DNA of 64,000 bases from Nitrospira sp. GTDB lineage: Bacteria > Nitrospirota > Nitrospiria > Nitrospirales > Nitrospiraceae. The first letter of the stretch is position 1, and the number at the start of each line of letters is the position of its first letter. Under the pieces are notes generated by a model, which did not search any database, was not told the DNA's origin, and saw nothing but the letters and a program-made list of their open reading frames with translations. Below are positions 10,314 to 12,963 of the stretch, piece after piece. Location: assembly GCA_022226955.1 (NCBI GenBank), contig CP092079.1, forward strand, positions 124,001 through 188,000, given 5' to 3'. Made by a program: the position numbers and the translations under genes.

Positions 10314-10394
<81 letters not shown>

Positions 10395-10749
10395 TCTTCA
10401 TAACAAGAATCTTCCTACCTTCTAGCTAAAACATGCAGTGGAGCTTGCTAACCTAAAAAGACTCCCGACCCCTTTGTTTTTTCCTTTTTCACGGCCCACC
10501 TTGTAGACTTTCTGAATTAATACCTGTGAAAGCGGTGTTGAGGGTGCTGAACTGGCCCCCGTATCAAATCCCGGCTTCTATACCATTGGGAATTGTCATC
10601 CTACCATCATCGGTAAGGCATTGCGGATACCACTTGACTTCACAAAGTAATAGCAGTTAGCTATGCTCCGTTCTCATTTGTAACAAAGAATGAGTCTTGC
10701 CAACACATGGTTGAATTAGAAAGAGAAGAACTAAATCTCTAGGAGAATC
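10395..10749. other. Non-coding left arm of the element
   Basis: There is no credible reading frame in these 355 bases. They contain the tRNA-Lys 3'-end fragment at 10466-10500 and, before the lipoprotein gene, TTGACT (10634-10639) as a possible -35 box without a matching -10. AGGAG at 10741-10745 is the ribosome site of the following gene. Confidence 0.5.
10466..10500 (+). repeat. Degenerate tRNA-Lys 3'-end fragment
   Basis: CGACCCCT (10466-10473) and CACGGCCCACC (10490-10500) are the T-arm and acceptor end of the tRNA-Lys, in the right order, but separated by a T-rich 16-base stretch where the tRNA has a single A. This looks like an old, interrupted third copy of the attachment sequence. 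Confidence 0.5.
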
Positions 10750-12432
10750 ATGAAAAAGCCCCTCACTCTCTGCGCATTAGCAACTCTCATTCTCTCTTTG
10801 GCAAGTTGTGCTACCTACACCTTCCAATCGATGTACCCATCTCATTTTTCAAGCAAGTCACAAAATGACAGGGGCCAAATCCCTTCCTCGGAAATTCCAC
10901 ACGAAATTTTAGAGTCTCTTCCTCCAGACTTCGAACTAGCATATTACTCTGGCCACTTATGGTGTTTTCGTGATTGGGCTGGAAAGGTGCACCTGCTGAA
11001 TCTGATGAAATCCATCCAGCGCACTGAGTGGAGCGACAAATTTCAGCAACAGATGAACTTAGCTCAAGAGGACGAGCAATTTCGTGTGTTTACACCTGTA
11101 GGATACCCCCATGTTTATTGCGTTGTACCAAACGTAGATATCTACGCATTGTTTAACGAGACATGGTTTGAAGGATGGCTGACCTACCTGACCGAATGGG
11201 AAGATGCGGAGCTAGAAATTGAAGCGCTTTGGGAAAGCAATAAGAAGCTGGTTACTGAGATTGCAGATTTAAGAAAGACCATCGCCGAAACAGACGAATC
11301 TATAAAATCATATCAGGCTAGAATCAAGGAGAAGGAAGAATCAATAAAGGCAAATGAATCTGCGATTGCGGATCGCAAGGCAAAACTGGGAATGAAATTG
11401 TTTTCGGTGGAGCCTAAAAAGAAAGAACCGGAGCTACCACCTTTTGACCCCAAGATACCATACGACAGGAAAAATGACCCTTTCCTTAGCGTGGTCACCG
11501 ATCACTCTCAGGATGTATCAAGTAAACCATGGGCAAGTCAGCAAATGAGCGGCGGGAAATATATTGACCCTGAAATGGCCCAGAAAATTGACGAAATCAA
11601 CGCTGCCTTCTCTACGCCGGATAAGATATCAGACCCCGGACTAAAGAAAGATGTAAAGGAGTTAATTAAGAGGGGATTCTCTGGGGTTACAGTAACTTCG
11701 GGGACGAGAACACCATGGCGGCAAGCAGATCTTTATGTAAAAGCGAAGAAAGATGGCACTCCAGTTGGCAAGTATGTTCGAAGCGATCATATGTTTGGCC
11801 AAGCTGCTGACATGACAATACCTGCTGGCTGGGGATGGAATACATCGAATCATAAATTCTTGCGTGCAGTAATGAGGCAATTTGGTGTTGCTATGAACGT
11901 TCCTAAGGACCACGTTCATTTTACGCTGGCGAACCCTTCACATTCCTTCCTGGCTAGAAGGCTAGCAATGGTTCGTGCTTACCATGCGAAAGCGGGGGAA
12001 ATACGACAGGCACAAGGGGCCGTTAAAACGAATGCGATTTTCGAACAGAATAGAATAACCGAACAGAAGGCAAAAGTAGAAAAAGATTTGAGTGACAGAA
12101 AAGACGAGCTTACCAGACAGTCCAATATCTTTGTTCAAGTCTCTGCCAGGTATGTTGAAGTACAACAAGAATTGCAACGTCTGGATGCCGAAATAGCTCG
12201 CAGAGAAGCTGAAGCTCGGAGAGCTGCTGAAGCAGCAGAGCGCCATAGGGATAGGAGAGGCATCGACCGAGAGCCTAGAGGTGGTTGGGAAAGGCCTCAG
12301 CCTGATCCGCCTCCGGTGGACCGAACAGAACCACCACAACGTGAACGGCCTCGCGGAGAACAACCTCGAAGGGAACCTCCGAGTCGAGATACACCCAGAG
12401 AGACCGTACCAGATATAGGACGTATGCCTTGA
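10750..12432 (+). CDS. Lipoprotein with coiled coils and M15 peptidase domain
   Basis: 560 aa. The signal peptide ends in lipobox LASC, with Cys20 the lipidation site. A coiled coil (about 155-215, ELEIEALWESNKKLVTEIA and later) precedes an M15 (VanY/endolysin-type) domain near 285-400 whose zinc motif is complete: S345-D-H347-M-F-G-Q-A-A-D354 and D387-H388-V-H390. A second helical stretch follows, then an Arg/Pro-rich tail with REPPSRDTPRE. M15 enzymes cleave D-Ala or L-Ala/D-Glu bonds of peptidoglycan. The coiled coils suggest it spans the periplasm. Gene composition is more A+T-rich than its surroundings, and it is the only gene of the tRNA-Lys element. Function beyond peptidoglycan cleavage is unknown. 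Confidence 0.85.
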   Translation: MKKPLTLCALATLILSLASCATYTFQSMYPSHFSSKSQNDRGQIPSSEIPHEILESLPPDFELAYYSGHLWCFRDWAGKVHLLNLMKSIQRTEWSDKFQQQMNLAQEDEQFRVFTPVGYPHVYCVVPNVDIYALFNETWFEGWLTYLTEWEDAELEIEALWESNKKLVTEIADLRKTIAETDESIKSYQARIKEKEESIKANESAIADRKAKLGMKLFSVEPKKKEPELPPFDPKIPYDRKNDPFLSVVTDHSQDVSSKPWASQQMSGGKYIDPEMAQKIDEINAAFSTPDKISDPGLKKDVKELIKRGFSGVTVTSGTRTPWRQADLYVKAKKDGTPVGKYVRSDHMFGQAADMTIPAGWGWNTSNHKFLRAVMRQFGVAMNVPKDHVHFTLANPSHSFLARRLAMVRAYHAKAGEIRQAQGAVKTNAIFEQNRITEQKAKVEKDLSDRKDELTRQSNIFVQVSARYVEVQQELQRLDAEIARREAEARRAAEAAERHRDRRGIDREPRGGWERPQPDPPPVDRTEPPQRERPRGEQPRREPPSRDTPRETVPDIGRMP

Positions 12433-12496
12433 AGTTCTAGGCTTCATAGTGAATCTTACTTTTCAAGCTTAAAGGTAAGAGAGGGAGATGGCGGAG

Positions 12497-12538
12497 GCCC
12501 GCTGACTTTTGGCGATTCAGAGTAAAGCTCAGCGGGCC
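12497..12538 (+). terminator. Hairpin after the lipoprotein gene, sharing tRNA-Lys sequence
   Basis: GGCCCGCTGA (12497-12506) pairs with TCAGCGGGCC (12529-12538); CTTT/AAAG extends it past one bulge to about 14 bp. It lies 65 bases after the stop. Its right arm with the next two bases (TCAGCGGGCCGT, 12529-12540) is identical to 12 bases of the tRNA-Lys, so it may be a captured tRNA fragment rather than a simple terminator. Confidence 0.45.
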
Positions 12539-12913
12539 GTTGAGGCTGAGGTATCACAATCTCACCAATTTCAGCCTGAGCGTCCATCACAATGACAGCA
12601 GCTAGAATGATTGATCATTCAGGAACTTGCAGGCCATTACCAGGGAGGGCATCACACTGTGACAACCAGCACGAGAACCCCTAACTAGCCTGGTAACAGG
12701 CACGGACTGCGATAAATTAAGGTCAACTACGTAGACATGAGGTTACTGGTAGGCTCACAGCTTTTTCCTGTGATAATGTGTGCTAGAGGGGGTCAAAATC
12801 ACAGACTCTATCGACTCCATCGAATCTATAGAGCTGTCTGAACCGACTGAAAAACCAAAAGAACGGGGAAACCGTTGATCGATCAAACCCTTGTAAAAAT
12901 GACCTTGTTCGAG

Positions 12914-12963
12914 CTCTTAATCAGCGGGCCGTAGGTTCGACCCCTACACGGCCCACCAAAAAA
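12914..12963 (+). repeat. attR-like 50-bp direct repeat (orphan tRNA-Lys 3' half)
   Basis: Identical to 10345-10394. It begins in the anticodon loop and includes the T arm, acceptor 3' strand, CCA and A-run, but the 5' half of a tRNA is absent upstream, so it cannot encode a tRNA. It marks the far junction of the insertion. Confidence 0.9.

Follow-up and report, generated by a model that had tools for sequence, protein, structure and literature searches.

The CIME, or cis-mobilizable element, is defined by integration and transfer genes that were lost and by attL and attR sites that were kept (PMC5704250). At ssrA of Dehalococcoides, 15 islands lack integration modules, and these are described as possible CIMEs (PMC3146451). 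Exported M15 peptidases are likewise already known. That the M15 family includes lipoproteins with a part in wall remodelling is shown by ZrlA of Acinetobacter baumannii, which has HxxxxxxD and xxH motifs (PMC7812711). ZrlA is reported to be present in all sequenced strains of the species, Zur-regulated, and to have an 86-residue domain (PMC7812711).

The locus studied here lies in the window, i.e., the whole 64,000-nucleotide stretch of a Nitrospira contig that was analysed. The reading considered reasonably probable is that of an island remnant with one gene, which would encode an exported, arm-mounted wall peptidase lipoprotein of M15 type, named P0001. Like CIMEs, the unit has kept its att repeats and lost integration and transfer genes, and it lies in a hotspot of the tRNA or tmRNA kind in which islands also stand in tandem (PMC5704250, PMC3146451). 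Unlike CIMEs, it is very small (2.57 kb, one gene) and its left arm is not recognisable.

The unit at tRNA-Lys

An intact tRNA-Lys (CTT) gene, the attachment site of the unit, was identified by ARAGORN and Rfam (RF00005) at 10314-10389; this and the following features are on the + strand unless stated. The repeat search gave two copies of a 50-nt direct repeat, i.e., the 3' part of tRNA-Lys plus AAAAAA, at 10345-10394 (left) and 12914-12963 (right), with 100% identity and a spacing of 2569. The site is empty in four relatives (G091, G119, G054, and G075), whose retrieved stretches contain one tRNA-Lys each without a second copy. In these four, the downstream barrel-protein gene follows tRNA-Lys directly. 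The right flank of the unit aligned to G091 with a local score of 84, and the best of 1,000 shuffles reached 27. Because of the perfect repeats and the four empty sites, the unit is an insertion at tRNA-Lys. The G+C content is 46% inside the unit versus 57% in the window. Only one long ORF, the P0001 gene, lies between the repeats. The earlier note had described the gene as element-borne and as the only cargo, and both descriptions hold. To these the analysis adds the missing integrase and a left end unlike that of the related islands.

No integrase or transfer gene was found in the unit by ORF list and tblastn. The left non-coding end (10395-10749) showed no integrase and no left arm motif as in related islands, by tblastn, motif scan, and DNA and arm searches. 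A candidate integrase remnant in this end was rejected, with a best tblastn E of about 0.07 among the matches listed and a tail resembling tRNA antisense. Two minor observations were made in the left end. A 19-column likeness to what follows tRNA-Lys in G091, found post hoc, was reached by 2 of 1,000 shuffles. At 10456-10487 lies a short dispersed repeat (about 20-37 nt), which has 11 further places in the genome at E<=0.18 and resembles a string near the left end of the G116 unit.

The right end holds the conserved right arm (12768-12907), common to the tRNA-Lys islands of relatives. Just 3' of the P0001 gene, an inverted repeat without strand assignment (12496-12538) was predicted by RNAfold to form a strong hairpin; it contains CAGCGGGCC, which occurs in tRNA-Lys as well. 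The stretch of G139 that matches the right end of the unit starts at this hairpin, i.e., at 12496.

The lipoprotein gene and its M15-type domain

The P0001 gene has 560 codons (10750-12432), and AGGAG, a possible ribosome-binding site, stands 4 nt 5' of its ATG (10741-10745). No ORF longer than 221 codons arose when the 2,519 bp that separate the repeats were base-shuffled 1,000 times. The translation begins with a hydrophobic signal sequence and the lipobox L17-A-S-C20 (10750-10809). A first long helix was predicted at residues 137-218 (11158-11403), with pLDDT up to 89 per ten residues in the alignment-free model. The M15-type domain covers approximately residues 285-402 (11602-11955), as placed by PHROG 2649, the alignment of 33 M15 rows, and the VIA-align rows at 283-402. 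A second long helix follows at residues 396-502 (11935-12255) in the single-sequence model, with slightly different ends in the aligned one, and then an Arg/Pro-rich tail at residues 503-560 (12256-12429), of low confidence in both models. The motif S345-x-H347-x-x-G350-x-A352-x-D354 was read in the translation, with H390 further on; the columns of H347, D354, and H390 are invariant or nearly so in the 33 M15 sequences. A complete M15 motif, a lipobox, two helical arms, and an Arg/Pro-rich tail had all been proposed earlier, and each is present, the long helices standing on either side of the domain in both models. We take L-A-S-C to be a lipobox because it fits the usual pattern, as read by eye in the translation. 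The residue after it, Ala21, would presumably favour the outer membrane if the sorting rule of E. coli applies.

The domain was recognized by profile searches. PHROG 2649, an endolysin family, matched P0001 at E 3e-4 in full length and 9.7e-5 with the domain only, and two further PHROG endolysin families ranked after it. When P0001 was left out of the profile and 33 M15 sequences made it up, P0001 scored E 2e-6, whereas none of 2,000 shuffles did better than 0.055. There is a mild circularity, in that the rows trace back to searches seeded by weak hits of P0001; the PHROG result is free of that. No other ORF of the window scored near the P0001 frame with this profile. Ten endolysin rows alone gave E 3.5e-5. 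The 23 tape-measure-type rows alone gave E 0.012, where the best shuffle gave 0.010, i.e., no separation. The identity between P0001 and the M15 rows compared is about 23-34%. In Pfam and NCBIfam, no M15 model was matched by P0001, and in Pfam the domain matched none even at E up to 10. The domain is a remote M15-type domain, with a membership that the profiles indicate to be remote but real. Because no curated M15 model of Pfam or NCBIfam was matched, this label is used rather than a named M15 subfamily.

With a tblastn cutoff of E 10, four phage records were hit. Three of them are annotated as endolysins or L-alanyl-D-glutamate peptidases (two being versions of one phage), and the fourth has an M15 stretch inside a tape-measure-like protein. 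Among plasmids, two of seven records were annotated as M15 and five were not. In a human faecal phage (MT835603; locus L119, 82-3105), a tape-measure-like protein carries an M15 stretch between helical regions. P0001 also had coiled-coil matches in Pfam, NCBIfam, PADLOC, and PDB, which were put down to the composition of its helices and disregarded. The PDB hits of the M15-row profile A2 rest mainly on phage rows and were uncounted as evidence on P0001.

Structure prediction, proposed in the earlier note, gave long helices in both models. The single-sequence model showed long helices at residues 137-218 and 396-502 (ten-residue pLDDT reaching 91) and left the M15 region unfolded (pLDDT 30-44 per ten residues at 311-400). 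The aligned model showed helices at 137-212 and 400-505 and a domain with pLDDT of about 61-78; it was built with the M15 rows, so the M15 likeness of its fold is not independent. In VIA-align, this model matched VanXYg (Z 8.8), LysB4 (Z 8.6), and VanXYc (Z 8.4), values for which the tool itself warns that a Z near 8 may reflect a common arrangement. Many more M15 and hedgehog rows matched P0001 at residues about 283-402. Foldseek gave nothing at E<=0.001 for P0001 in either library and returned mostly helical proteins.

Full-length relatives of P0001 were found in none of the 174 other genomes of the family, the own genome being the only match in 175. The earlier note had set ubiquitous housekeeping homologues against its own proposal, and a gene in one of 175 family genomes is far from that case. 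None was confirmed in phages, plasmids, genome contigs, or viral contigs, the scans of the two contig sets being seeded by exact 8-residue patterns that would miss diverged relatives. Two domain hits in the 395 phylum genomes (L110, E 0.004; L111, E 0.007) were rejected, as no M15-like ORF was listed there. The papers listed for Nitrospira included no description of the P0001 island, and those listed for M15 lipoproteins and tape measures included none on the P0001 architecture.

Related islands and cargo at the same site

With the unit as DNA query, 17 of 175 family genomes, own included, were matched in 4 genera. The matches outside the own genome were all in the right end, at about 12768-12907, apart from the longer match of G139. 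At 11 of 18 such places, the arm is followed by a tRNA-Lys 3' copy (G139, G055, G129, G155, G150, G060, G143, G116, G153, G068, and G031). One place in G142 has a degenerate copy, and under the limits used the copy is absent at six places, i.e., in G075, G136, G025, the second of G142, and the two of G048.

Seven units have the right arm and both repeats on one contig. The integrase is complete in two of them (G060 and G150), partial beside an assembly gap in G068, and absent from four, i.e., the own unit, G116a, G055, and G139. A TGTGNTA-type double motif was found at both ends in G060 and G110, and at the right end only in the P0001 unit. This motif may be the arm site of the integrase. The G139 unit (L244, 17088-18386) is 1.26 kb long, lies between two tRNA-Lys 3' copies, has the same right arm and no integrase, and contains two small genes resembling a toxin-antitoxin pair by eye. 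The tRNA-Lys site of G116 (L076/L077) holds two tandem units, a small one of 4.1 kb, whose ORFs suggest arsenic resistance by eye, and a large one with a truncated integrase.

The tRNA region was matched in 79 of 79 genomes of the genus, and a separate tRNA-Lys 3' copy was found in at least 19 of them, own included, with some of the extra copies at contig ends. Both copies lie on one contig in nine genomes, i.e., own, G121, G116 (tandem), G073, G060, G055, G068, G110, and G056. The ORF lists of their islands differ widely. By PADLOC at 1e-5, nine of ten island proteins had a match and the tenth (G060) had none, in a hand-picked sample of large and mostly already suspected ORFs, so that nine of ten is not a rate. 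The matches were to SIR2 and HerA in the G060 island, PD-Lambda-2_B in G055, HEC-06/GmrSD and a methylase-like protein in G110, and MzaB, MzaC, and MzaE in G056. In G129, a cytosine methylase was matched next to the shared right arm. Defence islands at the tRNA-Lys site of the genus were recorded as loci L079, L080, L082, L083, L084, and L252. Other units at the site appear by eye to carry arsenic, toxin-antitoxin, or Fic cargo.

Mobility, function, and known systems

The unit shows features of a CIME, with direct repeats at both ends (50 nt, 100%) and no integration or transfer genes. Its att sites are recognized by sequence only, the right arm being kept and the left arm motif not found. The relatives with an integrase, i.e., the G060 and G150 islands, are likewise known from sequence, and a conjugative ancestry of the unit is putative. 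The integrase domain PF00589 had seven matches in the own genome. Judged by size and score, two of them are presumably Xer. The remaining five are a fragment, two ORFs (429 aa and 602 aa), and a pair of pieces that make up one broken gene. The 429-aa ORF is a distant relative of the G060 integrase (about 26%). The broken gene (L114/L115, C1:1009908-1010379), of the same integrase subfamily, is split, holds a stop, and is the genome's nearest to the G060 integrase, with 61% over 69 aa. Among these seven matches, none is an intact gene closely related to the G060-type integrase, and the unit is therefore best read as a decayed remnant of cis-mobilizable type. Because it has no integrase or transfer gene and no left arm like that of relatives, and because the nearest integrase is broken, the P0001 gene probably has no active element to serve. 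Competition, phage-related lysis, or wall remodelling to the carrier's benefit, as suggested in the earlier note, are hypothetical roles, and the part of the carrier in them is weakened by this.

The following course is proposed. A tyrosine-recombinase island specific for tRNA-Lys would have inserted and duplicated the 3' half of tRNA-Lys. It would then have decayed to the 2.57-kb unit, in which both repeats and the right arm stayed, and the integrase, transfer genes, and a recognisable left arm disappeared. P0001 would be exported by its signal, lipidated at C20, and anchored in a membrane by its N-terminus. The long helical arms would hold a putative zinc peptidase of M15 type away from the membrane; should the two helices pack together, it would form the tip of a hairpin. 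Peptidoglycan within range of the anchor may then be accessible to the domain, which would cleave its peptide stems or cross-links, to a possible benefit of the cell. P0001 is thus likely a lipid-anchored peptidoglycan peptidase, as judged from its predicted features.

Against decay, the unit may still be mobile as a minimal one, in which the repeats and the arm suffice and an integrase acts in trans or from a neighbouring island. Four of the seven right-arm units lack an integrase and yet retain both repeats, tandem islands occur at the site in G116, and the right repeat is identical to the tRNA part though nothing obvious holds it. This is rather doubtful, as the double motif of the P0001 unit stands at one end rather than two and the nearest integrase gene of the genome is split and holds a stop. 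A bolder idea joins both questions, i.e., that P0001 is a tethered, arm-mounted endolysin acting on the envelope as single-gene defence cargo, and that right-arm cassettes without integrase are swapped at tRNA-Lys by the integrases of neighbours; it is judged highly unlikely.

The function of P0001 can also be explained otherwise. An effector of anti-phage defence or abortive infection would keep phages from entering, or would respond to infection by lysing or remodelling the envelope. The defence genes in islands of relatives, and the methylase by the arm in G129, make such a role possible in a defence-rich hotspot. However, the proteins scanned there were chosen, other units carry different cargo, and the PADLOC matches of P0001 itself are weak and mainly in its long helices, which leaves this explanation distinctly improbable. 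About as improbable is a phage tail origin, where a tape-measure fragment with M15 between helices gained a signal sequence. It draws on the top-listed phage hit, the M15 stretch in the tape-measure-like, 1,007-aa protein of MT835603 (34.7%, tblastn E 1, pairwise E 2e-9), and on the tape measure family PHROG 16823, which matches that stretch at E 2e-4 and the P0001 domain at E 0.061. Yet other phage and plasmid M15 enzymes match P0001 about equally well, its helices have no significant tape-measure match, and the tape-measure-type profile did not lift it above shuffles. P0001 is also 560 aa long with a lipobox, in a unit that has no phage gene. A loss of enzyme activity, which would leave a wall-binding or structural lipoprotein, is slightly less improbable and still unlikely. 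The similarity is remote, the gene is an orphan, and hedgehog proteins of the same fold class are among the structural matches; the three metal-site residues and the S-x-H-x-x-G-x-A-x-D motif are nevertheless kept.

The preferred reading, a remnant carrying a wall peptidase lipoprotein, can be compared with known M15 systems. Phage M15 endolysins (L-alanyl-D-glutamate peptidases such as LysB4, LysECD7, and T5 endolysin; PHROG 2649) share the metal-site motif, domain length, and predicted fold of P0001. However, the phage endolysins are small lysis enzymes, whereas P0001 is a 560-aa lipoprotein with helical arms, outside any phage. The wall-acting D,D- and L,D-peptidases VanX, VanXY, VanY, and LdcB have a fold like that predicted for P0001 (Z up to 8.8), but the identity is 15-22% over about 100 residues, the arms have no counterpart in the alignments, and the unit has no resistance genes. 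Phage tape-measure M15 (L119; PHROG 16823) also has the M15 stretch between helical regions, in a longer protein that has no lipobox and lies in a phage record. ZrlA, as described, resembles P0001 in being a lipoprotein of M15 type with these motifs (PMC7812711).

Integrase-less islands are already known as well. If small units of this kind move, single cargo genes would be traded at the tRNA-Lys site as in a natural exchange of cassettes. New compared with these systems is the combination of a lipoprotein, an M15 domain between long helices, no full-length relative in the collections searched, and a place in a defence-gene hotspot. If active, P0001 would be an unusual tethered wall enzyme.
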